This document shows, in pieces, positions 19,299 to 47,498 of a DNA stretch of 64,000 nucleotides. Position 1 is the first letter of the stretch. Each line of letters starts with the position of its first letter. The stretch comes from Deltaproteobacteria bacterium. GTDB lineage: Bacteria > Myxococcota_A > UBA9160 > UBA4427. Location of the stretch: assembly GCA_029261855.1 (NCBI GenBank), contig JAJDAN010000026.1, forward strand, positions 62,001-126,000. The letters run 5' to 3'. The notes beneath the pieces are model-generated. The model ran no database searches and was not told where the DNA came from. It saw only the letters and a program-made list of their open reading frames with translations. The translations under genes and the position numbers were made by a program.

Positions 19299-19574
19299 AT
19301 GGAAGAGCTGCGCCAGCAAGTCCTGATCCTCTATCTCGCGAGCTCGGCCCTCGACACGCCGGTGGTGGGTTGGTCGGTGTACGACGGCACCGGTCGCACT
19401 GAACCGATGTCGGCGGACGCCGACGAGCCGCCCTACAAGACCGGCGTGGCGGCGATGCGCGACGGCTGGCGGCTCATCCAGCTCTCACAGCTCATCCCGC
19501 CCTATCCGGGCGAAGAGTTCACGACCTCGTACCAGCGCTACGAGTGCGTGTTCGAGAAGCTGGTGCCCCGATGA
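19299..19574 (+). CDS. Small hypothetical protein
   Basis: A 91-residue acidic protein that follows the ABC exporter by 15 bases and overlaps the dioxygenase gene by ATGA. It starts MEELRQQVLILYLASS and contains PVVGWSVYDGTG, GVAAMRDGWRLIQLSQL and YQRYECVFEKL. No signal peptide or membrane segment is seen. The DGWRL...YECVFEK layout looks like a compact alpha/beta fold that I cannot name. Position and overlap suggest it is made with the exporter or the dioxygenase. Confidence 0.7.
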   Translation: MEELRQQVLILYLASSALDTPVVGWSVYDGTGRTEPMSADADEPPYKTGVAAMRDGWRLIQLSQLIPPYPGEEFTTSYQRYECVFEKLVPR

Positions 19575-20443: not shown

Positions 20444-20545
20444 TCGCTCGGGGTTACACTGTTTCCAGCTTCCATCCCGGGTCGTTTCCCGCTTCGGGCC
20501 GCCACCCGTTCCAACCCCAGACGAGCGAGGCGAGAGGTATCGGCA

Positions 20546-21433: not shown

Positions 21434-21435
21434 CC

Positions 21436-22677: not shown

Positions 22678-22723
22678 GGGCGTCCCGCTCGCGTTTACCG
22701 GATCGGCCGGCATCTTGTCGTCG

Positions 22724-22729
22724 TATACT
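22724..22729 (+). promoter_or_regulatory. Possible -10 box (TATACT) before the CoA-transferase gene
   Basis: TATACT is a strong -10 match in otherwise G/C-rich sequence, 64 bases before the GTG start. No good -35 is found at 16-18 bases. It could give the CoA-transferase and dehydrogenase genes a promoter separate from the SDR-amidohydrolase pair. Confidence 0.3.
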
Positions 22730-22751
22730 GGCGGCCTGCGTCGCCTCGGGT

Positions 22752-22782
22752 CAGCAGGCCGAGCAGCAGGCCGAGCAGCAGA
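22752..22782 (+). repeat. 12-bp tandem repeat in the 5' leader
   Basis: CAGCAGGCCGAG occurs twice in tandem (22752-22763 and 22764-22775), followed by a partial third copy. It lies just upstream of the ribosome site GGAG for the CoA-transferase. Copy-number change here could affect the leader but not the protein if translation begins at 22793. Confidence 0.6.
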
Positions 22783-22792
22783 AGGAGCGGAC

Positions 22793-25264: not shown

Positions 25265-25272
25265 GGCGTGCC

Positions 25273-26340
25273 ATGACGCGAACCATCGCCGTCATCGAGG
25301 GAGACGACGCTTCGCCCGAGGCCATGCGCCCCTGCGTCGAGCTGATCGACGGACTCGGGCTCGACATTTCCTGGACCTACCCGCCGGTGGGACCAACCGC
25401 GCGCGAGCAGCACGGGTCTCTGTTCCCGGACCGTGCCCGGGAGATGATCGATTCGGCAGACACCACCTACTTCGGATCGACCAGCGGAGGCGCCACCCAG
25501 GCGCTCTTCTACTTGCGCTGGGGCAAGCAGACCTACGCGAACGTGCGCCCCGCACGCTACTTCCCGGGTGCGCGCTCGCCCCTCGCCGAGCCCGAGGGCA
25601 TCGACTTCGTGATCGTGCGCGAGAACCTCGAAGACATGTACCTGGGCATCGAGGGCGATCTCGCGGATCTCGCCCCGCTGGGTCTCGTGAGCCGCACGTC
25701 GCGCCGCGCCGTCGCCGACCTTGGCGAGGGCCGCTACGCGATGAAGGCCATCACCCGAGAAGGCAGCGAACGGGTCGTCCGCTTTTCTTTCGAGCTGGCA
25801 CGCAAGCGCGCGGCCTCGCTTGGCCGACCCGGGAAGGTGACCTGCACCTCCAAGTACAACATGCTGCCCGAGTCGGACGGGTACTTCCGAGACATCGCGC
25901 GCGAGATCGCGAACGAGTACGACGACGTCGCCTTCGAGACCTTCATCGTCGACGACTTCGCCTGCCGCCTGGTCACGCAACCCCATCATTTCGACGTGGT
26001 CGTCATGCCGAACCTGTACGGGGACATCTTGTCGGACGCCGCAGCCGGGCTCATCGGCGGACTCGGCCTCGCGGCCAGCGGCTGCTACGGCGACGACTAC
26101 GCATACTTCGAGTCTGCCCACGGGACCGCGCCGGACATCGCGGGCCAGAACAGCATCAACCCGACAGCGACCCTGCTCTCGGGCTGCATGATGCTCGACC
26201 ACCTGGGCTTCGCCGCAGAATCCGCGCGCATCGAACGCGCCATCGCGGAGATCTACGCCGAGGGCAAGACCCTCACCCCGGACCAGGGCGGCAGCGCCAG
26301 CACCAGCGCCTTCTGTGACGCGGTCCGGGGACGGCTGTAG
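25273..26340 (+). CDS. Isocitrate/isopropylmalate dehydrogenase family protein
   Basis: A 355-residue beta-decarboxylating dehydrogenase starting at ATG 25273, eight bases after the CoA-transferase. Seen are a divergent substrate loop VIVRENLEDMYLGIEGD, a Lys in TCTSKYNMLPESDG, the metal Asp residues in FDVVVMPNLYGDILSD, and HGTAPDIAGQN for NAD binding. The usual ENTEGEYSG is changed to ENLEDMYLG, so the substrate is probably neither isocitrate nor 3-isopropylmalate; tartrate/malate-type or a larger 2-hydroxyacid is possible. It probably ends the SDR to dehydrogenase cluster. Confidence 0.88.
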   Translation: MTRTIAVIEGDDASPEAMRPCVELIDGLGLDISWTYPPVGPTAREQHGSLFPDRAREMIDSADTTYFGSTSGGATQALFYLRWGKQTYANVRPARYFPGARSPLAEPEGIDFVIVRENLEDMYLGIEGDLADLAPLGLVSRTSRRAVADLGEGRYAMKAITREGSERVVRFSFELARKRAASLGRPGKVTCTSKYNMLPESDGYFRDIAREIANEYDDVAFETFIVDDFACRLVTQPHHFDVVVMPNLYGDILSDAAAGLIGGLGLAASGCYGDDYAYFESAHGTAPDIAGQNSINPTATLLSGCMMLDHLGFAAESARIERAIAEIYAEGKTLTPDQGGSASTSAFCDAVRGRL

Positions 26341-26615: not shown

Positions 26616-27260
26616 TCAAGATCCCCGCACTTCCTCGAGAAGCCGCTCGAAGATCGGTCGAATCGTCTGTGCGGCCCGCGAGAGCGGGAGTTCGGGCGTA
26701 GTCTCGATCCAACGCGTTGCCGTCATGGTGACGGAGCCAATGAGTGTCGTAGAGACGCCGCGCGGGTCGAGGCCACCGAGCCGGCCCGCCCGCCCCGCAG
26801 TCTCCGCGAGTTCGGCCAGCCAGTCGCCGAACTCTTGGAAGACCTCGAACGACTCGTCACCGAGTTCCTCACGGATGCGGAACGGGATGCCATGCGTGCC
26901 GCGTGCGTAGATGCGCAGGAGATCCTGGTTGGCTTCGAAGCACGCGAACAGCGCATCAACCACCCCGAGCAGCCGCTCCGCAGGATCCTGGATGGCTTCC
27001 ACCTGGCTGCGGACGAGATCTCGCACGTGTCTGGCTGTAGTGCCGATTACATCCACGTAGAGTTCGTCCTTCCCCTTGAACAACCCATACAGCGTGGCCC
27101 GTGACAGCTCGGCGCGGGCAGCGATCTCGCTCATCTGGGCGGCGTGAAAGCCCTTCTCGGCGAACACGGCGGCGGCCGCAGCGATGGCGTCCCCCCGCCG
27201 GCGGGTCTGGTCGTCGATACGGCGACGTTCCTTGGGCGAAGAGTTCGTGCCGGTGGACAT
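26616..27260 (-). CDS. TetR family transcriptional regulator (TetR-1)
   Basis: A 214-residue repressor. The N-terminal helix-turn-helix is AAAVFAEKGFHAAQMSEIA to LSRATLYGLFKGKDELY. The ligand domain has DPAERLLGVVDALFACFE and DLLRIYARGTHGIPFRIR, shared almost word for word with the regulator at 31365. It is divergent from the DUF1329 gene, and the 110-base space between them holds a perfect palindromic operator, so autoregulation and control of DUF1329 are likely. The inducer is unknown; the hydrophobic pocket and neighbouring P450s suggest a lipid-like ligand. Confidence 0.92.
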   Translation of the reverse strand: MSTGTNSSPKERRRIDDQTRRRGDAIAAAAAVFAEKGFHAAQMSEIAARAELSRATLYGLFKGKDELYVDVIGTTARHVRDLVRSQVEAIQDPAERLLGVVDALFACFEANQDLLRIYARGTHGIPFRIREELGDESFEVFQEFGDWLAELAETAGRAGRLGGLDPRGVSTTLIGSVTMTATRWIETTPELPLSRAAQTIRPIFERLLEEVRGS

Positions 27261-27280
27261 CGTGTCAGCTCCGAAGTAGA

Positions 27281-27309
27281 CTCATGAGTCTGAATACCAG
27301 ACTCATGAG
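27281..27309. promoter_or_regulatory. Palindromic operator between TetR-1 and DUF1329 genes
   Basis: Perfect inverted arms CTCATGAGTCTG and CAGACTCATGAG are separated by AATAC, 29 bases in all. The left arm itself sits inside a smaller palindrome AGACTCATGAGTCT. This is the size and symmetry expected for a TetR dimer pair. Read on the minus strand the core GTCTGGTATTCAGA recurs at 31327-31340, ahead of the paralogous TetR gene. Confidence 0.75.
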
Positions 27310-27370
27310 GTTTCATATGAGTACTCGCGGGTCCGATTTCTCCCAGGCGTCCAAAGGAGAGGAGCACCCG

Positions 27371-28696
27371 ATGATCCGATCCCGATTGACCTGGATCGTA
27401 GCGTTCAGCGCCGCGGTGCTGCTGCTGTCCGGGATGCCGGCCGTCTCCCAGGAGGATGCAGGCGGAGCAGGCCCGACCTTCCAGGAAGGCGACGTGATCA
27501 CTTTCGAGAAGATCGACGCGCTGCGCCGGTACCTGCCGGAGGAGTTCTGGAACAACCGCGACTTCTTCTTCTACGAGGGGATGCAACTCGAGATCGGGCC
27601 CTTCTTCCGGGATTACGGCGAACCGGATGTCTACAAAGCCGCAACCAAGAAGAACTCTGGCACCGCGCGCATCGGGCCCGACGGCAGTCTGGAGAACTAC
27701 GTCTCGGGTCAACCCTTCCCGATCGAATCGATCGATTGCCTCGGCGACCCCCAGGCGGGCACCAAGATCATGTGGAACTTCGACTATGCCTGGGGGGGCG
27801 CGGGAGGTCAGGCGAGCTTCTACTACTCCTACTGGGACCGCGGCGAGGAGCTCCCCCTGTACTACGAGGGCACCTCCAAGACGGTGATGCTCTCGCACAG
27901 GGTGGAGCCTCAGTATGAGGCCACCCGTGGCGATGTCTTTCGCGGCGAGAAGCGGAAGGGAGCCTTCGGGATCGACGTAACTGCGCCTTTCGACGCCCGA
28001 GGCATCATGCTCATGAGCTACCGCTACAAGTCGGCCGACATGCCCCGAGCCGATGCCAAGAACGACGACACGTGGGTGTATGTCCCGACACTGCGTCGGG
28101 TGCGGCGGATATCGTCCGCACAGCGGACCGACTCGATCTCGGGCACAGACTTCACTTTCGACGACCTCCGGTCCTTCGCCGGCATCGTTCCCCAATACGA
28201 GTGGGAGTGCCTGGGCGAGATGGACCTGCTCGCGCCTTCCAACACCCGGGTGAAGGGCTACCCATACGACCGGGACCACAATTTCGGGCCCTACGGACTC
28301 TCCTTCGCCGACGACCGCTGGGAGATGCGCCATGTCATCAAGGTCCGCTTCCACCCGAAGAACGCGGATCATCCCTACAGCCGCAAGGATATCTACATCG
28401 ACAAGGAGGCCATGAACGCGCTCTACTCCTTCGCCTACGACCAGAAGTCAGAGCTCTGGAAGATCATCTGGCACAACAAGCGCTGGAGTGAGGAGGAGCT
28501 AACGGCGGACTACTACCCGGGATGGCAGGGCGTTCCAGAGCCGCGAGACCTGCGCATCGTGTCCGATATCATCACGAACGTTCAGACCGGAACCGGAAAC
28601 CGGATCGAGTTCTGGGACAACTACGGGACGCCGCTCAAGAGCAAGGGCAAGACCCGGCGATACATCGACGTGGGCCGCCTCACCAAGGGCCGCTGA
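27371..28696 (+). CDS. DUF1329 domain envelope protein
   Basis: A 441-residue protein with a signal peptide (basic start, WIVAFSAAVLLLSGMP, cleavage near AVSQE). DUF1329 proteins resemble LolA/LolB barrels and are often encoded beside DUF1302 proteins and RND/MMPL pumps in steroid or hydrocarbon clusters. Matching segments are DYGEPDVYKAATKKNSGTA, GTKIMWNFDYAW, DDTWVYVPTLRRVRRIS and FAYDQKSELWKIIWHNKRW. ATG 27371 follows GGAGAGGAGC. It is probably a periplasmic or outer-membrane carrier for a hydrophobic compound. It is divergent to TetR-1 and shares its operator. Confidence 0.88.
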   Translation: MIRSRLTWIVAFSAAVLLLSGMPAVSQEDAGGAGPTFQEGDVITFEKIDALRRYLPEEFWNNRDFFFYEGMQLEIGPFFRDYGEPDVYKAATKKNSGTARIGPDGSLENYVSGQPFPIESIDCLGDPQAGTKIMWNFDYAWGGAGGQASFYYSYWDRGEELPLYYEGTSKTVMLSHRVEPQYEATRGDVFRGEKRKGAFGIDVTAPFDARGIMLMSYRYKSADMPRADAKNDDTWVYVPTLRRVRRISSAQRTDSISGTDFTFDDLRSFAGIVPQYEWECLGEMDLLAPSNTRVKGYPYDRDHNFGPYGLSFADDRWEMRHVIKVRFHPKNADHPYSRKDIYIDKEAMNALYSFAYDQKSELWKIIWHNKRWSEEELTADYYPGWQGVPEPRDLRIVSDIITNVQTGTGNRIEFWDNYGTPLKSKGKTRRYIDVGRLTKGR

Positions 28697-28836
28697 CCGC
28701 TTGATAGCTGGTCGGAGCTCCGCACTGGGCCCATGAATCGGCACAGCAAACCAGTACTGGCTCGATCGAGCATGGGCGCGTTCAGCGGCGCCAGAGGCCC
28801 AGACGCGGCGAACCCTCGCCGGGCTCAGACGCTAGG

Positions 28837-29223
28837 CTGCTGACGGGTCTGCTTCTCACGGGTCCGGCGGCCGCGGAACCGCCTGCAGAGATCAGCTTCA
28901 CGCCAATTGGCGGAGTCGTGCCGGCGGTGCGCGAGTTGATGTTCGAGAACGACTCTACATCTCCGGCCCATGTCGAGCTCCTCGATTCTGTGCCGGAGCT
29001 CGTGTGGTGCACCGATCTGGCCGGCGTGACGGGCTACCGGCGCACGTTCCCGATGCCTCCTTGGGGCACACTCTATCGTCTGCTCGAGCCCGGCCTCTAC
29101 CGGATCGCGATCCACCAGAAGCTTGCCGAGGGAGGAGGTGACTCCTGGACGGCGCGCGTAGAAACCGTCGATGTGAGTAGGCGATGCGAGACAGCTAGGA
29201 CACGCGCTCGGCTGAGAGCATGA
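28837..29223 (+). CDS. Hypothetical secreted protein lacking a clear start codon (possibly frameshifted)
   Basis: The frame is open through 28837-29223 and encodes a secretion-signal-like LLTGLLLTGPAAAEPPAE followed by ISFTPIGGVVPAVREL, PELVWCTDLAG, TLYRLLEPGLYRIA and WTARVETVDV. No ATG, GTG or TTG precedes the signal in this frame; the first is the GTG at 28918, which would drop the signal. An ATG at 28733 opens the neighbouring frame and stops at 28841, so one frameshift would supply an N-terminus. Either a CTG start, a frameshift or decay explains this. The compact beta-rich C-terminal part is not recognised. Confidence 0.45.
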   Translation: MLTGLLLTGPAAAEPPAEISFTPIGGVVPAVRELMFENDSTSPAHVELLDSVPELVWCTDLAGVTGYRRTFPMPPWGTLYRLLEPGLYRIAIHQKLAEGGGDSWTARVETVDVSRRCETARTRARLRA

Positions 29224-30484
29224 GGCTCCGGGCACCTCTCAGCAGGAAGGAGTCTACGTACTCGACCTCCGACTCCAGTCGGTGCAGCCCGGAGACGCGT
29301 TTGAAGAGCTCCTCGAAGCCGACGCGTGCCTCCAGCCTTGCAAGCGACGCCCCGAGGCAGAAGTGGATGCCGAGACCGAATGCCACGTGGCCGCGTGTGT
29401 CGCGGTCGATGTCGAAGCGGTCGGCGTTCCGGAACTGGGCCTCGTCGCGATTGGCGGAGGCGAAGATCGGCAGCACGACCGCGCCCGCCGGAATCTTCGT
29501 TCCTGCCAGCTCGACGTCCTGGGTCGTCTCGCGAAATAGCATCTGCACGGGCCCGTCGTAGCGCAGCGACTCTTCGACGAAGGCGGGCACGAGCTTTGGA
29601 TCGGCCTGGACACGGGCGAACTGCTCGGGCTCAGCGAGCAGCGCCAGCATGCCGTTGCCCATCAGGTTGGTCGTCGTTTCGTTGCCGGCCACAAGGAGAA
29701 GAACCGCGAACATCAGCGTCTCCATTGGCGTCAGCGCAACCTCTCCCTCCTCGGCCGCGACCAACTGGCTGATCAGATCGTCCTTCGGGTCGCGCCTGCG
29801 ACGCTCGATCTGCTCCATGAAGTAGGCGTTGAATTCCTTGAAGGCCATCAGGAGCGCTGCGGGTTGCGTGCCGGATGCAGACCCCGTCGTGCCCTGGATG
29901 AGGGTGTCGGACCAACGCTTGAAGTCCTCGAATCGATCCGACTCGACACCCAGAAGCTCGGCAATCACCATGACGGGCAGCGGAATCGTGAAGTCTGCGA
30001 CCAGGTCGAACTCGTCCTTCTGGAGCATTCGATCGAGCGCCGCATTCGCGATCTCGCGAACCCGTGGTTCGAGCGCCGCGATGCGACGGGGCGTGAAGCC
30101 TCGGTTCACGATGTTGCGCAGTCGGCTGTGGTTCGGGGGGTCCGACGCGATGACCGATGGCGTCGTCATCATTTCGACAGGGTTGAAGCCGAGACCATCT
30201 GCCAGCTGGGCCAGTCCCTCCATGGCGCTGGCGTCGAGGGCCCTACCCGGGTCCATGTTCTGGATGCCGACGCTCATTCCCGACATCATCATTCGCTGCA
30301 TCGCTCGAGAAGAGAAGATCTCGGGCTGCTTGACGACTTGCTGGACATCTTCGTACCGCGACACGAGATGGAAACCCGGACCCTCGAGTCGGTAGACCGG
30401 CGCGTTCTCGCGCAGCTCTGCGTAGTGCGCATAGGGGTCGGATCGGGTCTCTGCCGAGAAGGGGTTGTACTGTACGGCGGTCAC
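29195..30484 (-). CDS. Cytochrome P450 (P450-1)
   Basis: A 429-residue soluble bacterial P450 starting at a GTG at 30484 preceded by GGAGG. The I-helix is LLLVAGNETTTN, the K-helix ExxR is VEESLR and the haem loop is FGLGIHFCLGASLAR with the Cys near residue 375. It resembles P450-2 at 33334 throughout (DPPNHSRLRNIVNRGFTPRRIA, PKDDLISQL). Such class I enzymes need a ferredoxin and reductase, neither of which is in the window. It follows TetR-2 by 16 bases on the same strand, so the two are probably co-transcribed. Confidence 0.95.
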   Translation of the reverse strand: MTAVQYNPFSAETRSDPYAHYAELRENAPVYRLEGPGFHLVSRYEDVQQVVKQPEIFSSRAMQRMMMSGMSVGIQNMDPGRALDASAMEGLAQLADGLGFNPVEMMTTPSVIASDPPNHSRLRNIVNRGFTPRRIAALEPRVREIANAALDRMLQKDEFDLVADFTIPLPVMVIAELLGVESDRFEDFKRWSDTLIQGTTGSASGTQPAALLMAFKEFNAYFMEQIERRRRDPKDDLISQLVAAEEGEVALTPMETLMFAVLLLVAGNETTTNLMGNGMLALLAEPEQFARVQADPKLVPAFVEESLRYDGPVQMLFRETTQDVELAGTKIPAGAVVLPIFASANRDEAQFRNADRFDIDRDTRGHVAFGLGIHFCLGASLARLEARVGFEELFKRVSGLHRLESEVEYVDSFLLRGARSLMLSAERVS

Positions 30485-30500
30485 GTTGCCTCCATTCGAT

Positions 30501-31163
30501 CTAGCTGATGTGGTCGACGACGGGTCGCGGACCACGGATCCCGAGCAACCGTCGGGTGATGTCCAGGACGTCGCGCTTGTGCGCCTCGAGCTGCTCCTGG
30601 CAGAGCAGGTCGTAGGGCAGCTCGCGGACGAAGGTTGGCAGGGCTGCGACGTAGAAGAGTGTCGAACCGGCTACCGTGCTCACGAAGTGAAGCGAGTCGG
30701 AGCGCAGCGGACGAAACACGCCAGAGCGCTCGCCCTCTTCGAAGATCATGTCGAGTAGGGTCAGGAAGGGCTGGGACTGAGCCTGGATCTCGTCGCGGAT
30801 CTTCGCGTCGGAACTGAGCGACTCGCGCAACGCAAGCCGTGCGGCGGTCGGGTGTCGCCCCATGTAGTCGACGAAGGCGCTCACGGCGGCTTCCACCCGA
30901 TCTGCCAGCGTCCCCTCTCGAATCAGGGGGGAGCGAAGCACCGCGAGCAGGCCGCCAAACAACTCGTCCAGGACCGACCGGTACAGCTGCCGCTTGTCCG
31001 TGAAGTGGTAGAGCACTGCGGAGCGCCCGATACCCACGTCCCGCCCCACATCATCGAGGCGGGTCGCATCGTACCCCCACTCGGCGAACCGGCGCGCCGC
31101 AGCTTTCAGGACCAGGCTGCGGGTTCGCTCGGCCCGGCCCTGGCGTCCTTCGATAGCAGGCAT
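30501..31163 (-). CDS. TetR family transcriptional regulator (TetR-2)
   Basis: A 220-residue regulator. The DNA-binding part is FAEWGYDATRLDDVGRDVG to GRSAVLYHFTDKRQLY. The ligand domain is unlike TetR-1 and TetR-3: GRHPTAARLALRESL, FLTLLDMIFEEGERSGVFRP. It is transcribed with P450-1 and divergent from TetR-3. The promoter region contains half-sites ATGAGTC that resemble the TetR-1 operator. It could be an oxidised-substrate sensor for the P450-1 gene. Confidence 0.9.
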   Translation of the reverse strand: MPAIEGRQGRAERTRSLVLKAAARRFAEWGYDATRLDDVGRDVGIGRSAVLYHFTDKRQLYRSVLDELFGGLLAVLRSPLIREGTLADRVEAAVSAFVDYMGRHPTAARLALRESLSSDAKIRDEIQAQSQPFLTLLDMIFEEGERSGVFRPLRSDSLHFVSTVAGSTLFYVAALPTFVRELPYDLLCQEQLEAHKRDVLDITRRLLGIRGPRPVVDHIS

Positions 31164-31170
31164 TGTGTTC

Positions 31171-31199
31171 AGTTAGCCTCTCACTGTCTTATGAGTCAA
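31171..31199 (-). promoter_or_regulatory. Candidate promoter for TetR-2/P450-1 operon
   Basis: On the minus strand TTGACT (31199-31194) and CTAACT (31176-31171) are spaced by 17 bases, a good -35 with a moderate -10. The predicted transcript start would fall within one or two bases of the ATG at 31163, so a leaderless mRNA is possible. The spacer contains ATAAGACAGTGAG, and the -35 overlaps ATGAGTC in the other direction. Confidence 0.4.
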
Positions 31200-31326
31200 C
31201 TGAGGCCGATCGCCGAACCGATTAAACGCGGAGACTATGGAGGAATATACAATGATTTCGAAAATCTATGAGATCTTCGACCGAGTCCGCAATCGCTGAC
31301 TTGAGAGACAGCAACGGAAATGTCTG

Positions 31327-31341
31327 GTCTGGTATTCAGAA
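31327..31341. promoter_or_regulatory. Operator core upstream of TetR-3, shared with the TetR-1 promoter
   Basis: GTCTGGTATTCAGAA matches 14 of 15 bases of the reverse complement of 27288-27302, including the asymmetric five-base centre. The outer arms are not conserved. It lies 24 bases before the TetR-3 ATG, a position where a bound repressor would block transcription or translation start. Confidence 0.65.
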
Positions 31342-31364
31342 CAACAATTCTGTATGGAAGAACA

Positions 31365-31994
31365 ATGGAATCTTTCCGAGCGCAGCGACGCCAACTCGAA
31401 CAGGACCAGCGGCGAGCGGACATCGTCCGCGTCGCCTCGACCATCTTCGGCGAGAAGGGCTACGACGGTGCACAGATCGCGGAGATCGCCAGCGCCGCCG
31501 AGGTCTCGTTGGCATCGGTGTACTCGCTCTTCCGGGGGAAGGAAGAGATCTACGAGGCCGCCATAAAGGGTGCGGCCGAATCGATCCGCGAGACCGTATT
31601 CGACAAGATCGAGCCGGTGCCGGATCCCGGCGAGCGGCTGCTCACGCTCGTGGACTCGCTGTTCGACTGCTTCGAGCAGAACCGCGACCTGCTGCGCATC
31701 TACACGCGCAGCACCGGCGGTCTCCCATGGCGGATGCGTAGCAGCATGGGCGACTCATCCGTCGCCATCTTCCAACACTTCACCGACTGGGTGACCGATC
31801 TCGCGCACGACGCGCAGAAGGCAGGCTACCTGAAGGGGCTCGACCTGGAGACCTTCGCGCTCACCGTGATCGGGGCAGTCACCACGACGGCCGCGTTCGC
31901 CATCGAGCGGGCGCCGGAGCGACCATTGACCGATGCTGCCCCCGCGGTGCGTGCGATCTGCAAACGAGCCCTGCTCGGCGAGGAGCGCGGATGA
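31365..31994 (+). CDS. TetR family transcriptional regulator (TetR-3, paralogue of TetR-1)
   Basis: A 209-residue regulator from ATG 31365; an in-frame ATG at 31320 would put the operator core inside the gene. The helix-turn-helix is IFGEKGYDGAQIAEIA to LASVYSLFRGKEEIY. The ligand-domain blocks DPGERLLTLVDSLFDCFE and DLLRIYTRSTGGLPWRMR correspond to TetR-1. It heads a six-gene plus-strand run ending with the RND pump, and its stop overlaps the hydrolase start (ATGA). Autoregulation through the core at 31327 is likely. Confidence 0.92.
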   Translation: MESFRAQRRQLEQDQRRADIVRVASTIFGEKGYDGAQIAEIASAAEVSLASVYSLFRGKEEIYEAAIKGAAESIRETVFDKIEPVPDPGERLLTLVDSLFDCFEQNRDLLRIYTRSTGGLPWRMRSSMGDSSVAIFQHFTDWVTDLAHDAQKAGYLKGLDLETFALTVIGAVTTTAAFAIERAPERPLTDAAPAVRAICKRALLGEERG

Positions 31995-33337
31995 TCGAGT
32001 GGGCCGAAGTTGCAGCGGGTCGTGATGGGCTGCGGATCCACCGCGTCGATGCCGAGGCCGGCGGAATTCCCGGATCCGCGTCTGGAGGCCTGCAGCTGCA
32101 GAACCCGCTGGAGCTGATTCTGGCTCGCTTCGACACACCGACCGTAAGGTGGCTTCGCGACGACTTTACGGGGACCGGTTCCGCGGTTGGCCTGAGTTCC
32201 TTCTCCGTTGCCTGCCATGTCATCTCGCTCCCGGACGCCCTGGTCGTCGTGGACTCCACGTATCGGACGACGGCGGGAGAGATCTTCCCTCGTGTCCTGG
32301 AGGAGATCTCGAGCCATGAAGGCCGGCAGCTCGCGGACCGACCGATCCAGGTCATCTACACCCACGCGCATTTCGACCACGCGGGCGGACAGGCTGCCGT
32401 CGAGGCGCTAGGCGAGTCGGTCGAGATCCTCGCTCATCCCTTCACCGCGAAGCTCGCGCCGCTGGTGAGTGCGCGAGAGTCCTTTCTTCGAACCCGTGCG
32501 CACTTCCTCCGCGACTGTGGCATCCACGCCGATCTCGACGAGCTGACCGACGGGATCCGTGCCCACTTTCTTCAACTGGCTGAGAAGGCCGGAGTGAGTC
32601 TCGCGAAAGCGCCATGGGGCAGCCTCGACGATGGTCCACCCCGGGTCGACCGCGCAGTCGAACCGGGTCGGGGTGCGATCCCGGTTGCCGACGGTCGCAT
32701 CGAGGTCCTCGAGTTCGCAGGCCACATCCCGGGACATCTCTGCGTTCGCGTCGACCAGCGGCACTTCGTGACCGGGGACATGTGGCTGCCGGCAACGACG
32801 TCGCTCGTGACCCCGGGAACGACCGCCGAGGCGGCGGGGATCGCAGCCGATGAGTGTGGCGTGCTGCGGTACCTGGAATCGAGCGAGCGTCTGCTCGAGC
32901 TCGATGTCGACGAGGACATCGCGTACCCGAGCCACGAGATCATCTACCGCAATCCGAAACGCATGGCGCTCCGGGACATCGAGCTACTGGCGGAGCGCAT
33001 CCCGCTCATCGAGGGAGTGCTCGACCAGCATCGCCAGGAACCGATGCGTGTCGTGGACCTCGCCTGGGGCGGGCGCGACCAGCTGCCGGTCTGGAAGGTC
33101 GAGGGAAGTGTCATGCGACTGGTGATCGCCCACGACGAAGCCGCGGCCTGGGTGCAGGATCTCGTGATCCTCGGCGACTTGCGCGAGGTCGAGCCCGAGC
33201 GGTTCGTCGCGACTGGCAGCCGAACGCTCTTCGCCCGCATCGAATCGGCGCTCGAACTGACCCGCGAGCGCCATGGAAATCTGGAATTTCGCAGCCGCGG
33301 GCGAGCCCAGCCCGAACTGGAAGGAGAATCGGCATGA
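31991..33337 (+). CDS. Metallo-beta-lactamase-fold hydrolase
   Basis: A 448-residue protein with the metal motif THAHFDHAGG near residue 123 (HxHxDH), a further His in GHIPGHLCVRV and an Asp in FVTGDMWLP, so both metal sites are likely occupied. The C-terminal third (EDIAYPSHEIIYRNPKRM) resembles the dimerisation region of larger esterase- or sulfatase-like members. It lies between TetR-3 and P450-2 with overlaps at both ends. Likely chemistry is hydrolysis of an ester, lactone or sulfate made from the P450 substrate; the bond is not known. Confidence 0.85.
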   Translation: MIEWAEVAAGRDGLRIHRVDAEAGGIPGSASGGLQLQNPLELILARFDTPTVRWLRDDFTGTGSAVGLSSFSVACHVISLPDALVVVDSTYRTTAGEIFPRVLEEISSHEGRQLADRPIQVIYTHAHFDHAGGQAAVEALGESVEILAHPFTAKLAPLVSARESFLRTRAHFLRDCGIHADLDELTDGIRAHFLQLAEKAGVSLAKAPWGSLDDGPPRVDRAVEPGRGAIPVADGRIEVLEFAGHIPGHLCVRVDQRHFVTGDMWLPATTSLVTPGTTAEAAGIAADECGVLRYLESSERLLELDVDEDIAYPSHEIIYRNPKRMALRDIELLAERIPLIEGVLDQHRQEPMRVVDLAWGGRDQLPVWKVEGSVMRLVIAHDEAAAWVQDLVILGDLREVEPERFVATGSRTLFARIESALELTRERHGNLEFRSRGRAQPELEGESA

Positions 33338-34605
33338 CCGTATCAGTAGATCAAGCGACCAATGTCAGGACAGGGCCGCCCAGTGCCGCCGATTTCAACC
33401 TGCTCTCACCGGAGTTTCGAGAGAACCCCTACCCGTTCTACGCCGCGATGCGGCGAGAGTCTCCGATCCACCCGCTGGCTCCAGGCGCCCCGCTCTACGC
33501 GATCACCCGCTATGCCGACGTGATCCACATTCTTCACCACCCGGAGCTCTTCTCGTCTCGTGCGCTGCAGGTGGCGCTACAGGGTGGCGGAATCGGCATC
33601 GGGCCGAACAGCGGTGCGCTCGCCGGACACCGACTTCTCAGCTCGCCGATGATGATTGCGACCGATCCGCCGGACCACGGCCGCCTGCGGCGCCTGGTCA
33701 ATCGAGGCTTCACGCCACGTCGCATTGCGAGCCTCGAGCCGCGCATCCGGGAGATCGCGAATCAATGCCTCGACGACGCGATCGAGGGCGGGGAGCTCGA
33801 GCTCGTGCGCGGGCTCTCGATCCCGCTGCCGGTGAAGGTGATCGCCGAGATGCTCGGCGTCGAGCGTGATCAGGTCGACCAATTCAAGGCGTGGTCCGAC
33901 GCGTTCGTCGTGGGTCTCTCCGGAGCGACGGGCCAATACGAACCGGAGGACGTGCGCAAGGCAGCGGACGAGATGGCGGACTACTTCGAAGGCTTCGCTG
34001 CGGAGCGACGCGCCAATCCGAAGGACGATCTGATCAGCGTGCTCACCCAGGCTGAGGAGGGCGATGCGCTCTCCACCGGCGAGCTGATGTCCTTCATCGC
34101 GCTCCTCCTGATTGCCGGGAACGAAACGACCACGAATCTGATCGGAAATGGAGTCAAGGCGCTGCTTGCCCACCCGGATCAGCTCGGGCGCGTTCTCGCA
34201 GACCCGAGTCTCGTTCCAGCGCTGGTGGAAGAGGTCCTGCGCTACGACTCGCCGATCCAGGCGCTGCCGCGCTCGAACACGAATGCAGTCGAGTTGCCCA
34301 GCGGAATCGTCCCCGAGAATTCTACCCTGCTGGTGTTCTACGCCGCGGCGAACCACGACGAGGAGAAGTTCCCCGACGCGGAGAGCTTCGACATCGACCG
34401 CGCGACCGGCGACCACGTCGCGTTCAGTCACGGCATCCATTTCTGTCTGGGTGCTTCGCTCTCGCGACTCGAGGCCCGCGTTGCGTTCGAGACGCTCTTC
34501 TCGCGCTGCCGAGAGCTGGAGCTGGCCGCGGATTCCATTCCCATGGTCGACTCGGCGGTGTTGAGGGGTCCCAAGTCCCTGCCGCTGCGAATCGGAGCCG
34601 CATGA
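33334..34605 (+). CDS. Cytochrome P450 (P450-2)
   Basis: A 423-residue class I P450, paralogous to P450-1. Features are the I-helix LLLIAGNETTTN, K-helix VEEVLRYDSPIQ and the haem loop FSHGIHFCLGASLSR with Cys near residue 371; the first haem-loop Gly is replaced by His (FSHG). The ribosome site AAGGAGAA precedes ATG 33334. It overlaps the hydrolase upstream and the transglutaminase-like gene downstream by four bases each. No redox partner gene is in the window. Confidence 0.95.
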   Translation: MTVSVDQATNVRTGPPSAADFNLLSPEFRENPYPFYAAMRRESPIHPLAPGAPLYAITRYADVIHILHHPELFSSRALQVALQGGGIGIGPNSGALAGHRLLSSPMMIATDPPDHGRLRRLVNRGFTPRRIASLEPRIREIANQCLDDAIEGGELELVRGLSIPLPVKVIAEMLGVERDQVDQFKAWSDAFVVGLSGATGQYEPEDVRKAADEMADYFEGFAAERRANPKDDLISVLTQAEEGDALSTGELMSFIALLLIAGNETTTNLIGNGVKALLAHPDQLGRVLADPSLVPALVEEVLRYDSPIQALPRSNTNAVELPSGIVPENSTLLVFYAAANHDEEKFPDAESFDIDRATGDHVAFSHGIHFCLGASLSRLEARVAFETLFSRCRELELAADSIPMVDSAVLRGPKSLPLRIGAA

Positions 34606-35315
34606 GCGCGGTAGACAACCACCCTCGAACGCCGACTTTTCTGGAACCCGGCGAGCACGTAGACGCGGATCACCCCGATGTAGTCGCGTTTGCGAAGGCG
34701 CAGACCCGCGATGCAAGCGGTGAGCGCGAGACAGCAGTGCGGCTCTACTACGCAGTTCGAGACGCGATCCGCTACGATCCGTACCTGGCCGGTTCGTCAT
34801 CCGAGGCGCTCCGAGCATCGGAGGTCCTTCGCGCGAAACGCGGATGGTGTGTGAGCAAGGCCGTGCTGCTGGCTGCTTGCTGCCGCGCGCTGGGGATCGG
34901 CGCGCGACTCGGGTTCGCCGACGTTTGCAACCACCTTTCCACCGCACGCATGCGCGAGTTCATGGGAACGGATGTCTTCTACTACCACGGGTACGCCCAG
35001 CTTCTGATCGACGGCCGATGGCTGAAGGCGACGCCTGCATTCAACATCGAGCTCTGCGAGACGATGGGCCTGTTGCCACTCGAGTTCGACGGGATGAACG
35101 ACTCCCTCTACCACCCCTTCGACCGCGAGGGCAGGCAACACATGGAGTACATCCGAGACCACGGTGTCTCCGATGCCGTGCCCGTCGAGGAGATGGTCGC
35201 GACCTGGCGCCGCCACTACCCGCAGACGGGCCTCGGCCGCGATGCTGCCAGCGGCTTCGCTTCGGATCCTGCCAGCTTCGAGACCGAGGTCGAAGCCGAG
35301 CTCAGGGGCCGGTGA
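34602..35315 (+). CDS. Transglutaminase-like (Cys-His-Asp) superfamily protein
   Basis: A 237-residue cytoplasmic-looking protein of the transglutaminase/protease-like fold. The nucleophile is Cys83 in KRGWCVSKAVLLAA, His is in YYHGYAQLL, and Asp in LIDGRWLKATPAFN; the triad order Cys-His-Asp is intact. There is no signal peptide. The fold also covers peptide N-glycanases and cysteine hydrolases of natural-product pathways. Why it is translationally coupled to a P450 and an efflux pump is unclear. It may hydrolyse or condense an amide of the compound handled by this locus. Confidence 0.85.
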   Translation: MSAVDNHPRTPTFLEPGEHVDADHPDVVAFAKAQTRDASGERETAVRLYYAVRDAIRYDPYLAGSSSEALRASEVLRAKRGWCVSKAVLLAACCRALGIGARLGFADVCNHLSTARMREFMGTDVFYYHGYAQLLIDGRWLKATPAFNIELCETMGLLPLEFDGMNDSLYHPFDREGRQHMEYIRDHGVSDAVPVEEMVATWRRHYPQTGLGRDAASGFASDPASFETEVEAELRGR

Positions 35316-35316
35316 C

Positions 35317-36438
35317 ATGACCAACGGAGCGCGCAACCCGCTCGTGCGGCAACTCCTATGCATGCTCGCGTTCGCCGCTACGACGATCGGTTGTGGGGCT
35401 ACGGAGACATCAGAGCCGACCGCGTCCGCACCTGCGGCAATCGACGTTCGACGCGTGCAGGTGGTCGAGACGGAGCTCGTCGTGCCTGTATTCGGAACCG
35501 GCACGATCGCCGCACACAAGACGACTCAAATCGGCCCACGTGTCGACGGCATCATCGAGGAGATCTTCGTCAAAGTAGGGGATCGCGTCGAGTCTGGAGC
35601 GCCGCTCTTTCGGACTCGGCGGGCCCACTATCAGATTCGTGTCGACGAGGCGTATCAGGCGCTGGAGCTGGCCGAGGCCGAGCTGCAGCACGCGAAGCGC
35701 GAGCGGTCTCGCATCGCGAGCCTGCACACCAGCAGCGTTGCGTCCGAAGATCACCTCGACGATACCGAGACGGCACACGACATGGCGAAAGCGCGACGTG
35801 GAAAGGCACGAGCGGCCCACGCCCGCGCGCTCCAGGACCTCGAAGACACGACGGTTCGAGCACCCTACCCGGGTGCCATCACGCGCCGCTATGTGGATGA
35901 AGGCGCGATGATGCGAACCATGCTGAGCGCGAACTCGCCCGTCATCCAGATCATGAAGATGGACATCGTTGCCGCAATCGTCCAGATCCCAGAGGTTCAC
36001 CTGTCGCAGGCGCACGTCGGAACGCCCGCACGGGTCAAGGTGGACGGGATCGACCGCGTGTTCGAGAGCGAGGTCTACATCCTGAACGATCTCGTCGACC
36101 CCGTGTCGCGAGCGTTCGAGGTCCGGCTGCCACTTCCGAATGAAGACCTGGCGATCAAACCTGGGCTCTTCGCCCGGGCCGAGCTTCTGCCAGAGCCTCG
36201 CTCGGTGACGGTGATCGACCGCGGAGCCGTCCTCGGGGTGGAAGGTAGCCGCTACGTATTCCTCGACGAAGGCGGGACCGCCGCTCGGCGGGCGATCAAG
36301 GCGCGGGATCTCGATGCGATGCGACTCGAGGTGCTCGAAGGGCTTTCAGCCGGCGACTACGTCCTGAGCGGGCCGAATCTCGGGCGCCTCTCGCCCGGAA
36401 CACCGGTCGCCATTCAAGCCGATCATGCGAATCGCTGA
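35317..36438 (+). CDS. RND efflux periplasmic adaptor lipoprotein (HlyD/AcrA family)
   Basis: A 373-residue membrane-fusion protein with a lipobox TIGC at Cys26. The order is typical: beta-barrel and lipoyl half VFGTGTIAAHKTTQIGPRVDG, coiled-coil hairpin ELAEAELQHAKRERSRIA to KARAAHARALQDLEDT, lipoyl half VRAPYPGAITRRYVDEG, then the barrel with KPGLFARAEL. It links the RND permease to an outer-membrane channel. No TolC-like gene is in the window. Its end overlaps the permease by 14 bases. Confidence 0.92.
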   Translation: MTNGARNPLVRQLLCMLAFAATTIGCGATETSEPTASAPAAIDVRRVQVVETELVVPVFGTGTIAAHKTTQIGPRVDGIIEEIFVKVGDRVESGAPLFRTRRAHYQIRVDEAYQALELAEAELQHAKRERSRIASLHTSSVASEDHLDDTETAHDMAKARRGKARAAHARALQDLEDTTVRAPYPGAITRRYVDEGAMMRTMLSANSPVIQIMKMDIVAAIVQIPEVHLSQAHVGTPARVKVDGIDRVFESEVYILNDLVDPVSRAFEVRLPLPNEDLAIKPGLFARAELLPEPRSVTVIDRGAVLGVEGSRYVFLDEGGTAARRAIKARDLDAMRLEVLEGLSAGDYVLSGPNLGRLSPGTPVAIQADHANR

Positions 36439-39400
36439 CATATCCATCCGCAGGCCCGTCTTCGCGGTCATGTTGATCGGTTCTTTGGTGACGCTCGGCT
36501 GGATCTCGCTCGGCCGTCTGGGTGTCGACCTCTTTCCCAAGGTGGAGTTCCCGTACGTCGCCGTCACCACCAGTCTGCCTGGAGCTTCCCCGGACGCGAT
36601 CGAGACCGAAGTCAGCGACGTCCTCGAGGAGTACGTCAACCGGATCTCGGGGATCAAAGAGCTGCGCTCCGTCAGCTCGGAGGGCCTCTCTCAGGTCTTC
36701 ATACAGTTCGAGCTCGAGGAGAACGTCGACATCAAGGCGCAGGACGTGCGCGACAAGGTTTCGCTCGCGCAGCGCGATCTGCCTCAGGAGGCCGAGGCAC
36801 CGATCATCGAGAAGATCGACCCCGCTTCTGCACCGATCCTCTCGGTCCTGATTGGCGGAGATCTCCCGGTCCGCGACCTCACCGAGTTCGCCGAGGATGT
36901 CGTCAAGGAGCGACTCCAGCGCCTGGTGGGAGTCGGCTCGGTCTCCCGGGTGGGCGGACGCGAACGTGAGATTCGCATCTGGCTCAACACCGATGCGCTT
37001 CGCAGCTATGAGCTCACAGCCACTGACGTGATGGCGGCCCTGCGGGCCGAGCATGTCAAGATTCCCGGCGGCCAGCTGGAAACGAGAGGGGCCGTCGCGG
37101 AGTTCTCGGTGAACACGATGGGCGAGGTCGAGAGCGTCGAAGACTTCGGCAGTATCGTCGTGGCCTATCGAGAGGGCGTCCCGACCTTCATTCGAGATGT
37201 CGCCCGCGTCGAAGATGGCCTCGAAGACGAGAGGACCTACGCCGAGCTCAATGGTACTCCCGGCGTTTCCTTGGAGGTTCGCAGGCAGTCTGGCCGCAAT
37301 ACCGTCGCGGTCGCTCGAGCCGTCACGAAGGAAGTCGAACTCCTACGTGCCAGCGCGCCACCCGGTGTGAAGCTCACCCTTGCTCGCGATATCTCGAAGT
37401 TCATCGAATCGTCGGCGCATGATGTCAGTGTCGACATGGTTGTCGGCGGGGTTCTCGCCATTCTCGTCACGCTGGTCTTCCTGCGTAACGTGCGAACCAC
37501 GTTGATCGTCTCGACTGCGATCCCGGCGTCGGTCGTGGCGACCTTCTTCCTCTTCTACGTCATGGGCTTCACTCTCAACCTCCTGACACTCATGGCCCTC
37601 TCGGTTTCGATCGGCCTGCTGATCGACGACGCAATCGTCGTACTGGAGAACATTCACCGGCACATCGAAGAGGGCGTGCCGCCCCTTAGCGCTGCTTCAC
37701 GCGGGACCGCTGAAGTCGGCCCTGCGGTCATCGCCGGCACACTCTCCGTCCTGGCCGTTTTCTTGCCGATCGCCTTCATGCAGGGACTGATTGGCCGCTT
37801 CTTCTTCGAGTACGGGCTGGTGATCTCCTTCTCCGTCGCCATCTCGTTGCTTGTCGCGCTCACGCTCACTCCGATGCTCTGCGCGTACACACTTCGCGCG
37901 GGTGGCTCCAAGGGTCGCCTCTACCAGATCATGGAAGCCCTGTACTCGGGGCTCGACCGCGCATACGGCGGGCTGCTCGCCCGTGTTCTCCGCCATCGCC
38001 TCCTGGTGATAGGCCTCGCAGCGGCGGCCATCTATCTCGGGATCAGCGTGGCTGGCAGTATCCCCCTGGAGTTCTCGTCGAAGGCCGACCGCTCCGAGTT
38101 CGAAGCCGTCGTCGAGCTTCCGCAGGGAGCCGGGATCGAAACGACGAAGGCGATCGGCAGCCGAGTCGCCGAGGCCGTCGGCAGTGTCGAGCACGTCGAT
38201 AGCGTCTTCATGACTGTTGGTGGAGGCGCGCGGGGCGAGATCAACGTCGCAAGCATCTACGGAACGCTGACCCCCAAACAACAGCGGGAGACGACGCAGG
38301 AACAGATCATCGCGAACATCCGGGATGTCTTGCGGCACACGGCGCCCGAGGCCAAGCGAGTCGGGGTCAACGAAATCCCTTGGATCTCTGGTGGGGGATT
38401 TACCGCTTACAACCTGGAATACGGCCTTCAGGGTGATGACCTACGAGTCCTGGAAAGCACGGCCGAGCGCATCGCCGCTGAAATGAAGGCGTCACCACTC
38501 TATGTCGATACTGCCCTCAGCTTCGAGCCGGGGAAGCCGGAGATCCAGGTCCGGATCGACCGGAAGCGAAGCGCGGACCTTGGCGTGCCGCTTCGCCCGC
38601 TGGCGTCGACGATTCGAGCGCTCATCGGAGGGCTGGAGGTCGCGCAGTTCGAGGAATCGGGCAAACGATACGGTGTCCGTGTGCGACTCGAAGCCGACCA
38701 GCGTGACGAGCTTCACGAGATGGAGCGAATCCAGGTTCGCTCCGTCAACGGAAGGCTCGTCGAGCTGACCAGCGTCGGTGAGCTGAGCGTCGCGAGCGCG
38801 TCCGCACGCATCGACCGTCGCGATCGTGCGCGTAGCGTGACGATCTTCGCGAATACTACGCAGGGAGTCGCCCTTGGAACCGCGGCGGCGCGCCTCGACG
38901 AGATCGTGCAGCAAGTGGGCCTGCCAGCTGGCTATCAGGGGACGCACGAGGGAACGGCGAAGCGAATGAAGGACACCGCGTCCGCGGTGGTATTCGCCTT
39001 CCTGCTCGCGCTCCTTGCGCTGTACATGATCCTGGCAAGCCAGTTCAACAGCTTCGTCCAGCCTGCGGTCATCATGCTCTCTGCACCGCTTTCCTTCGTT
39101 GGCGCCTTCGCTGCGCTCTCGTGGTCGGGCATGCCGCTGAGCATCTGGGCACAGATCGGTCTCATCGCGCTGATGGGGCTCGTCATGAAGAACGGGATCC
39201 TACTCGTCGACTACGCGAACCAACTCTGCGAAGAAGGTGCGGATGCGCACACGGCGATGCTGCGGGCGGGCCCGGTGCGGCTGCGCCCGGTCCTGATGAC
39301 GGCGTTCTCGACGATTTTCGGGATGATCCCGGTGGCTCTGGCAAGCAGCGACGCTGCCGAGTTTCGAAATCCAATGGGTGTACTCGTCATCGGTGGGCTG

Positions 39401-39544
39401 GGCTCGTCGACACTGCTTACGCTGCTGGTCGTCCCGGTCGCCTATACGCTTCTCGCAGACCTGCGCGCCGCCATGGTTCGACTCTCGAGCTGGGTACGGA
39501 CACACTTCGTTCGCGGAGCGACACAGGATTCGGCGCCGCATTGA
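36425..39544 (+). CDS. RND multidrug/hydrophobe efflux permease
   Basis: A 1039-residue inner-membrane proton antiporter of the AcrB/MdtB type. It has the expected twelve-helix layout with two large periplasmic loops. The proton-relay pair Asp401-Asp402 is in LLIDDAIVVLENIHRH, and SIRRPVFAVMLIG begins TM1. It forms a trimer with the upstream adaptor. The gene ends at position 39544 with a TTGA overlap into the decayed flavin monooxygenase. Given the P450s and hydrolase upstream, the pump may export the compound or its oxidised products. Confidence 0.93.
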   Translation: MRIADISIRRPVFAVMLIGSLVTLGWISLGRLGVDLFPKVEFPYVAVTTSLPGASPDAIETEVSDVLEEYVNRISGIKELRSVSSEGLSQVFIQFELEENVDIKAQDVRDKVSLAQRDLPQEAEAPIIEKIDPASAPILSVLIGGDLPVRDLTEFAEDVVKERLQRLVGVGSVSRVGGREREIRIWLNTDALRSYELTATDVMAALRAEHVKIPGGQLETRGAVAEFSVNTMGEVESVEDFGSIVVAYREGVPTFIRDVARVEDGLEDERTYAELNGTPGVSLEVRRQSGRNTVAVARAVTKEVELLRASAPPGVKLTLARDISKFIESSAHDVSVDMVVGGVLAILVTLVFLRNVRTTLIVSTAIPASVVATFFLFYVMGFTLNLLTLMALSVSIGLLIDDAIVVLENIHRHIEEGVPPLSAASRGTAEVGPAVIAGTLSVLAVFLPIAFMQGLIGRFFFEYGLVISFSVAISLLVALTLTPMLCAYTLRAGGSKGRLYQIMEALYSGLDRAYGGLLARVLRHRLLVIGLAAAAIYLGISVAGSIPLEFSSKADRSEFEAVVELPQGAGIETTKAIGSRVAEAVGSVEHVDSVFMTVGGGARGEINVASIYGTLTPKQQRETTQEQIIANIRDVLRHTAPEAKRVGVNEIPWISGGGFTAYNLEYGLQGDDLRVLESTAERIAAEMKASPLYVDTALSFEPGKPEIQVRIDRKRSADLGVPLRPLASTIRALIGGLEVAQFEESGKRYGVRVRLEADQRDELHEMERIQVRSVNGRLVELTSVGELSVASASARIDRRDRARSVTIFANTTQGVALGTAAARLDEIVQQVGLPAGYQGTHEGTAKRMKDTASAVVFAFLLALLALYMILASQFNSFVQPAVIMLSAPLSFVGAFAALSWSGMPLSIWAQIGLIALMGLVMKNGILLVDYANQLCEEGADAHTAMLRAGPVRLRPVLMTAFSTIFGMIPVALASSDAAEFRNPMGVLVIGGLGSSTLLTLLVVPVAYTLLADLRAAMVRLSSWVRTHFVRGATQDSAPH

Positions 39545-41100
39545 CGCTGGGGCTCTCGGTTCGAGTCTTCGAGACCGGCACGGACGTGGGGGGAACCTGG
39601 TACTGGAACCGCTACCCCGGAGCGCGCTTCGACTCCGAGAGCTACAGCTACGGCTACTCCTTCTCGAAAGAGCTGCTGGAGGAGTGGAACTGGAGCGAGC
39701 ATTTCTCCGGCCAGCCGGAAACCTTGCGCTACCTGAACTACGTCGCTGACAAGTTCGATCTCCGCAAAGACATCCAGTTCAGCAGCCGGATCGCTTCCGC
39801 GGCATTCGACGAGGTCGAAGGTTCGTGGGAGGTCGTCACCGACGAGGGTACGAGATCACGAGCTCGCTTTCTGATCACGGCGGTCGGGCCGCTGTCCGCG
39901 CATACGCTGCCCAAGATAGAGGGGCGCGACAGCTTCGAAGGGTTCGCGTGTCACACCGCGCGGTGGCCTCATGAACCCGTCGACTTCACCGGCAAGCGCG
40001 TGGGTGTGATCGGGACAGGCGCCACCGGCGTTCAGGTCATTCACGAAGTTGCGAAGACCGCCGGGCGTCTCACAGTCTTCCAGCTGCAGCCGAACTTCTG
40101 TGCGCCCCTCCACAACAGCGTCATCGACGAGAGGACCCAGCGCGAGATCCACGCGAGCTACCCGGAGATCTTCGACAAGTGTCGCGCGTCACACGGCGCC
40201 TTCATTCATCAGGCAGACCCCCGCTCGGCGCTCGAGGTGTCTGCCGAAGAGCGAGAAGCCCTCTGGGAGAAGCTCTACTCGGAGCCTGGCTTCGGGATCT
40301 GGATGGGAAACTTCAACGACATCTTCGTCAACGAAGAGTCCAACGCGCTGATGACCGAGTTCATCATCCGGAAGATCCGCGAGCGGGTGAGCGATCTCGA
40401 AATCGCAGAGAAACTGGTGCCCAAGGACCATGGCTTCGGCACTCGACGCGTGCCTCTCGAGACCCAATACTACGAGGTCTACAACCAGGACAACGTCGAG
40501 CTGGTCGACCTCAATGAGAATCCCATCGACCGGATCGCGCCGAGGGGCATCAGGACTCGCCTCGCCGAGTACGAGCTCGACATCATCATCTACGCGACCG
40601 GCTTCGATGCGATCACCGGGGCATTCGACCGGATCGAAATCCGCGGAGAAGAGGGGACGACGCTCAAAGAAAAATGGGCGAACGGCCCCCGGACCTACCT
40701 GGGCCTCCAGTCCGCAGGCTTCCCGAACCTGCTCACTCTCGTCGGCCCGCACAACGCCGCGACGTTCTGCAACATCCCCCGCTGCATAGAGCAGAACGTG
40801 GAGTGGGTGACGGACCTGGTCCGCTACATGCGCGACAAGAACTACACGCGCGTCGCGGCGACCCTCGAGGCCGAGGACGAGTGGACAGGGCACGTCTACG
40901 ACATCGCATCGCTCACGCTCCTGTCCAAGACTGCCTCCTGGTTCACGGGTGTGAATCTGAATCTCCCCAAAAAAGGGCCTCGCAGCCGGAACCTCCCGGA
41001 TACCCCGAATACTCGTCTCCCGCCCACGCTCAGCGGGGGATGCGATGGCTCCGTCGCCCCGGGGTTGGAGAGCGGTTTGGTGTGCTGGGATTTCCTTACT
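39541..41100 (+). pseudogene. Flavin-containing monooxygenase (Baeyer-Villiger type), truncated at both ends
   Basis: The open frame begins inside the protein family: it reads TLGLSVRVFETGTDVGGTW, so the first 24 residues with the FAD-binding GxGxxG are absent, as seen by comparison with the intact copy at 49583. The internal motifs FEGFACHTARWP (Baeyer-Villiger fingerprint) and GVIGTGATGVQ (NADPH) remain. The C-terminus is disordered: after NLPKK, at a CCCC-AAAAAA run at 40965-40974, the expected PGYPEYSS is in another frame, and CDGSVAPGLESGL reappears in the first. A TTG at 39541 overlaps the RND stop and could still start translation, but FAD binding would be lost. Confidence 0.7.
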
Positions 41101-47415: not shown

Positions 47416-47498
47416 GCTGCGAGCCTAGCCCCGGCTCGAGCGTACGACCTCCCACTCTTCCGGGATCAGCCCCACCTCGATCTGCCTGTATCCCGGTC

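Follow-up and report, generated by a model that had tools for sequence, protein, structure and literature searches.

The camphor genes of the Pseudomonas putida CAM plasmid (camRDCAB and camG, which encodes OTEMO; PMC6027186) place a TetR-type repressor beside a cytochrome P450 (P450) operon, and a type I Baeyer-Villiger monooxygenase (BVMO) acts later in that breakdown of a cyclic terpene. CYP109Q5 of Chondromyces apiculatus, a further P450, is reported to oxidise terpenes, steroids and drugs, with CamA/CamB able to support it (PMC6389848). Here we compare with these and other described systems a locus lying between 26.6 and 41 kb of a 64,000-nucleotide stretch (hereafter the window; positions 62,001 to 126,000 of GenBank contig JAJDAN010000026.1, assembly GCA_029261855.1) of the genome of a Deltaproteobacteria bacterium (G000; 6.96 Mb, 91 contigs; locus on contig C26). 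The locus includes genes for TetR regulators, two P450s, a metallo-beta-lactamase-fold hydrolase (MBL), a transglutaminase-like protein and an RND pump with its periplasmic adaptor (MFP), and on balance we read it as a TetR-controlled, probably horizontally moving cluster that oxidises and expels a cyclic, hydrophobic compound of terpenoid- or steroid-like type.

The camphor genes share with this locus the TetR-type regulator beside P450 genes, and the BVMO found in related clusters has OTEMO as its best PDB match; in contrast, ferredoxin, ferredoxin reductase and alcohol dehydrogenase were not recognised here, the P450s are CYP109-like, the BVMO is broken in the window, and the locus has in addition an MBL hydrolase and a dedicated RND pump. 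The HAE1-type RND tripartite pumps (MdtABC/Mex type) share overlapping RND and RND_mfp genes (14 bases) in a TetR-headed operon, but no outer-membrane factor was recognised in the locus studied here, and its operon adds P450, MBL and transglutaminase-like proteins. The likeness to the DUF1329 hydrocarbon/steroid clusters, cited by an earlier annotation made from the DNA alone (the original prediction), is a DUF1329 gene beside the cluster; this gene, however, is divergent from a TetR of its own and stands outside the conserved core, and a paralog sits away from the cluster. The earlier statement that no described system with this exact set is known agrees with the open-access papers searched, in which no equivalent of the combination marked by the narrow MBL family was found and which cannot prove absence; all the parts are of known kinds.

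Gene content and translational coupling

Gene identities rest on Pfam and NCBIfam profile matches, and the locus comprises the following genes:

26616-27260, minus strand: TetR1 regulator (Pfam TetR_N, 1.4e-14), divergent to the DUF1329 gene
27317-28696, plus strand: DUF1329/LolA-like protein (Pfam, 1.9e-45), accessory unit
29195-30484, minus strand: P450A, CYP109-like (Pfam, 5e-30, scored on the longer open reading frame 29195-30535)
30501-31163, minus strand: TetR2 regulator (Pfam/NCBIfam), upstream of P450A
31365-31994, plus strand: TetR3 regulator, heading the coupled operon (alternative upstream ATG possible at 31320)
31991-33337, plus strand: MBL-fold metallohydrolase (Pfam Lactamase_B, 1e-6)
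33334-34605, plus strand: P450B (Pfam/NCBIfam)
34602-35315, plus strand: transglutaminase-like protein (Pfam, 2.8e-16), translationally coupled
35317-36438, plus strand: HlyD/MFP periplasmic adaptor (TIGR01730, 180.7 bits; cut-off 94.9)
36425-39544, plus strand: HAE1-type RND permease (ACR_tran, 4e-278, residues 4-1010)
39541-40990 (end ~41000), plus strand: truncated type I BVMO pseudogene (alignment A2; frames checked)

These profiles backed every gene named in the original prediction (three TetR, DUF1329, the P450s, MBL, transglutaminase-like, HlyD, RND and a flavin remnant). Three ATGA overlaps were found (at 31991, 33334 and 34602) rather than the four claimed; the single base between the transglutaminase-like gene and the MFP gene (TGA-C-ATG) and the 14-base overlap between the MFP and RND genes are present as described. 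The base composition is moderately shifted: GC at third codon positions (GC3) is 0.75-0.85 in the cluster genes and 0.82-0.91 (mostly 0.86-0.91) in flanking genes, total GC is 62-66% and 66-70% respectively, and the shift extends past the cluster through a DUF7453 gene to ~42.9 kb. Scans for tRNA genes and Rfam families across the window gave no matches.

Conservation of the core in other genomes

The core cluster is real and its gene order is fluid. Among the 61 genomes searched, the top two matches of the MBL beyond the window itself (62% and 59%) and the top two of the RND (64% each) fell on the same two contigs (G041:C163 and G055:C107), a few kb from each other. In four genomes (G041, G055, G200 and G256; loci L106, L107, L119 and L118), belonging to two families (f6 and f4) of the same order, neither being that of the window, the MBL (57-62% identity), a P450A-type CYP109-like P450 (54-63%), a TetR3-type regulator, an MFP and the RND (63-68%) occur together in varying order. 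A second P450 type, with no counterpart at the window locus, accompanies the MBL in all four. The arrangements are: TetR3-MFP-RND with P450C-P450A-P450B-MBL-TetR4 on the opposite strand (G041); P450C-P450A-MBL-TetR4 diverging from TetR3-MFP-RND-alpha/beta hydrolase-BVMO (G055); TetR4-MBL-P450A-P450C-P450D-BVMO-TetR3-MFP-RND, all in one direction (G256); and RND-MFP-TetR3 diverging from TetR4-MBL-P450A-P450C, with P450D nearby (G200). Within the window's own family, G024 carries P450C, P450B, an alpha/beta hydrolase, P450A, RND, MFP, TetR3 and a BVMO, and no MBL; an intact type I BVMO thus goes with the set in G055, G256 and G024. Sparser relatives are RND-P450A-hydrolase on a 4-kb contig (G022), an MBL accompanied by a TetR3-like gene only (G188), and a more distant MBL (49%) with no partner genes on a 9-kb contig (G004). 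At the window locus P450C, P450D, TetR4 and the alpha/beta hydrolase are missing; TetR3 is the first gene of the operon with the MBL, TetR2 is the partner of P450A, and the transglutaminase-like gene lies between P450B and MFP. The P450C- and P450D-like genes of the window genome are on contig C89, away from the locus.

MBL orthologs were found in only 7 of the 379 phylum genomes sampled, that of the window included; this narrow hydrolase family marks the module. A matching RND lies within 10 kb of the MBL in four of the six other MBL genomes, for which random placement gives P ~3e-9 (a rough value which ignores common descent). What began as a list of plausible neighbours is in this way a gene module kept together in different families of an uncultured order. 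The conserved adjacency by which the original prediction proposed to judge its "one system" was largely found for TetR, P450s, MBL, MFP and RND (plus BVMO), in rearranged order, and this set is supported as a unit by its co-location elsewhere; the 14.5-kb stretch as a whole is not so supported, because the conserved clusters contain neither the transglutaminase-like gene nor the DUF1329/TetR1 pair, and P450A/TetR2 forms a divergent unit of transcription.

Catalytic genes and pump

Both P450s carry the heme-ligand motif FxxGxHxCxG (FGLGIHFCLG in P450A, FSHGIHFCLG in the other) and the I-helix AGxET as AGNET. They had been described as paralogous, and the pair is indeed 50% identical; the duplication is old, since each has closer relatives in other genomes than the other (those of P450B, in G041 and G024, are 60-61% identical). 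CYP109Q5 (PDB 6GMF) is the nearest solved structure for both, with 187 of 376 aligned residues identical in P450A (~50%, over two aligned stretches); it lacks the methionine-rich stretch carried by the P450A-type proteins of the cluster. The insertion in P450A-type proteins follows residue ~70, is variable in length and partly methionine-rich, and is shorter in P450B. Members of one CYP family share more than 40% identity, a threshold which P450A passes for CYP109, formal naming aside.

All metal ligands of the MBL are kept (HxHxDH, H245/H249, D263 and H315) and are invariant in six orthologs (alignment A1). The RND gene encodes an AcrB-type permease of ~1000 residues with its cognate adaptor beside it; its best NCBIfam model is NF033617 (903 bits, under the cut-off of 1250). 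Export is expected because the pump is an HAE1-type RND with a periplasmic adaptor, which narrows the original "exports or imports" to its first half.

The "remnant flavin monooxygenase" was correctly recognised and is, more exactly, a type I BVMO without its N-terminal FAD motif and C terminus. Its body is 70-75% identical to the intact BVMOs of G055, G256 and G024 (alignment A2), whose nearest known enzymes are OTEMO and PAMO (phenylacetone monooxygenase), and it keeps the type I fingerprint FxGxxxHxxxWP, conserved in these relatives, as FEGFACHTARWP. The first ~40 residues, with the FAD-binding GxGxxG (GAGxAG in L107, L118 and L109), are missing, the frame continues straight from where the RND gene ends, and the C terminus cannot be aligned. 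The order RND-hydrolase-BVMO in G055 suggests that the hydrolase and the beginning of the BVMO were lost by deletion. The loss looks recent, since the ~480 codons that remain are free of stops.

Probable mobility

Four observations suggest horizontal movement: the patchy distribution, with MBL and P450A orthologs missing, at the thresholds used, both from G001, of the same genus, and from most of the family; the closest RND found being in another family (68%, compared with 55% for G024 of the window's own family); the lower GC3; and MobA/VirD2-DUF3363 relaxase genes no more than ~5 kb away from the cluster in two genomes that belong to different families (L106, 15551-17167; L118, 1465-3066). 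Horizontal transfer is the simplest reading of these data, and loss in relatives is a possible alternative. No element boundary was found; homologs of the CaiB and isocitrate-dehydrogenase-like genes of the left flank were present in relatives, not adjoining the cluster, and a clean empty site was not found. The plasmid search returned no MBL, and its best RND match (49.5%) was on a Blastomonas plasmid, with an alpha/beta hydrolase and a thioesterase near it and no P450 listed near.

Regulators and accessory genes

TetR1 and TetR3 are 48% identical and form one group. The TetR2-P450A pair also occurs in G328 (76%/66%; L177), at a contig end. TetR1 and the DUF1329 gene are a separate divergent unit, outside the conserved core, and the gap between them holds a predicted regulatory feature:

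27278-27312, strand not assigned: candidate TetR operator pair AGACTCATGAGTCT and AGACTCATGAGGTT, near-identical and 21 bases apart

A scan of the window allowing up to three mismatches gave two sites compared with 1.9 expected by chance, both within this single 35-base promoter gap. Genome-wide, the DUF1329 operator had eight one-mismatch sites and its reversed control two matches; GACTCATGAGTC occurs exactly once in the 6.96 Mb. Another candidate operator, AGACTCTTGAGTCT, precedes a homologous TetR-MFP-RND unit in G031 (L108), and TGACTCATAAGACA (minus strand, near 31190, before TetR2-P450A) is a weaker match by eye, below the scan threshold. Before the TetR4-MBL operon of four relatives (L106, L107, L118 and L119) a different palindrome, like AAAGTCAACA-n4-TGTTGACTTT, recurs as a further predicted site. 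The DUF1329 paralog of the window genome (84-86% identical; L095, G000:C68, 1658-2983) has a YCF48/BNR gene as its neighbour on a contig of 10.7 kb and is perhaps a recent duplicate.

The transglutaminase-like gene, absent from the conserved clusters, appears to have been recruited here. It encodes a Transglut_core domain (Pfam) with Cys83 and His129 invariant in 20 sequences (alignment A3), and its structural model (pLDDT 84.7) gave weak fold matches (TM ~0.35-0.48) to 3isr, a transglutaminase-like protease, and to arylamine N-acetyltransferases. As a cluster marker it was rejected: its 28 relatives in the contig collection and those at order level mostly lack MBL, P450A and RND neighbours, and no MBL was found in 22 genomes carrying its relatives, in a search without a positive control. 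Its association with P450 systems nevertheless recurs, as shown by Gordonia/Tsukamurella operons (L023-L028), where relatives (46-47%) overlap the ferredoxin reductase gene behind a P450, and by a Moraxellaceae metagenome-assembled genome with the transglutaminase-like gene, a flavin monooxygenase, a ferredoxin reductase and a P450 inside 7 kb. The Gordonia/Tsukamurella operons share with our locus this homologous gene overlapping a P450 electron-transfer operon; they differ in their AraC-type regulator, other P450, ferredoxin reductase and BtrH-type acyltransferase, and no MBL or RND relative was found nearby. Their gene spacing is alike across both genera, and they are mostly on short contigs, possibly plasmid-borne.

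Proposed pathway and alternatives

The enzyme families lead us to propose hydroxylation, Baeyer-Villiger insertion, hydrolytic opening and export, in that order. The compound would release the TetR repressors; the CYP109-like P450s would hydroxylate it; an enzyme outside the operon would convert the hydroxyl to the ketone that a BVMO needs; the BVMO would insert oxygen, giving an ester or lactone, which the MBL-fold hydrolase would open; and the MFP-RND pump would expel the substrate or toxic products. The transglutaminase-like protein could be an additional enzyme of acyl transfer or hydrolysis. A more far-reaching version, put forward tentatively, is that uncultured bacteria share a mobile cassette for degradation and efflux, not described before: P450s, BVMO, the narrow-family MBL and the dedicated RND would make up a single regulated pathway acting on one particular terpenoid- or steroid-like compound, and the modules TetR2-P450A, transglutaminase-like gene and BVMO would be swapped in or out. 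Confirmation of the proposed pathway would supply an inducer, a substrate class and new enzymes of the CYP109-like and BVMO kinds, and would account for the handling of bulky hydrophobic compounds by these bacteria.

Several points weigh against reading the locus as this oxidation and efflux cluster. The BVMO of the cluster is broken in the window genome, so either another BVMO supplies the step (further BVMO-like genes exist in this genome, one of them intact in the window at 49583-51217) or the pathway would end at hydroxylation and efflux. Lactone opening by the MBL is a guess, because its best PDB profile match is weak and glyoxalase II-like, with no specific match to lactonases; its single-sequence model (pLDDT 33.6) is too poor for use. 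No ferredoxin or ferredoxin reductase to feed the P450s was recognised among the genes identified in 26.6-41 kb, and no outer-membrane factor gene among those of 26.6-43 kb. Many HAE1-type pumps rely on a distant TolC, so the latter absence does not exclude pump function. The AGACTCATGAGTCT site was found before DUF1329 only, with none within three mismatches before the operon in the window scan; the relaxase genes may be unrelated neighbours; and the substrate class is one that we infer rather than read from direct substrate evidence.

The most serious alternative, which we nevertheless consider unlikely, is detoxification without carbon use, the P450s, MBL and pump guarding against a hydrophobic toxin such as a plant or microbial terpenoid. 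In its favour, HAE1-type RND pumps with an MFP belong among the exporters, the operon has no recognised gene for beta-oxidation or for a CoA ligase, and the BVMO has decayed here while the pump and P450 frames stay open; however, the several kinds of oxygenases and hydrolases in relatives look like degradation, loci L119 and L109 have a thiolase-like gene close to the cluster, and the window flanks hold CoA-transferases, a BVMO, a flavin monooxygenase and a dienelactone hydrolase. Improbable is biosynthetic tailoring, in which the P450s and BVMO would decorate a self-made natural product secreted by the RND: such enzymes also occur in the biosynthesis of terpenoid lactones of the pentalenolactone type, and both P450s have matches to the pentalenolactone synthase profile of NCBIfam, far under its cut-off, but neither the genes scanned in 26.6-41 kb nor those beside the clusters of relatives included a recognised terpene cyclase, polyketide synthase, nonribosomal peptide synthetase or prenyl synthase. 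That unrelated catabolic fragments came to lie together by chance, in a gene-rich oxidation region, would fit the differing gene order and orientation and the apparent additions or remnants (transglutaminase-like gene, DUF1329, BVMO fragment), but the same core in four genomes of two other families and the translational gene overlaps in the window make it very improbable, the co-location speaking strongly against chance for the core; chance may still account for the transglutaminase-like gene and DUF1329.

Flanking regions

Downstream of the oxidation and efflux cluster there is a second oxidation region (46705-56840), with the following genes:

46705-47415, minus strand: dienelactone hydrolase
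49583-51217: intact BVMO
51225-52433 and 53512-54705: two CoA-transferase III-like genes
55374-56840: flavin monooxygenase

A Fic/DOC family protein (47499-48680) encoded in this region matches an IclR-like helix-turn-helix in its C-terminal part. Upstream of the cluster, a run of plus-strand genes (19571-26340), perhaps another catabolic operon, encodes a PhyH dioxygenase, a short-chain dehydrogenase/reductase (SDR), an amidohydrolase, a double-length CoA-transferase III and isocitrate/isopropylmalate dehydrogenase-like proteins.

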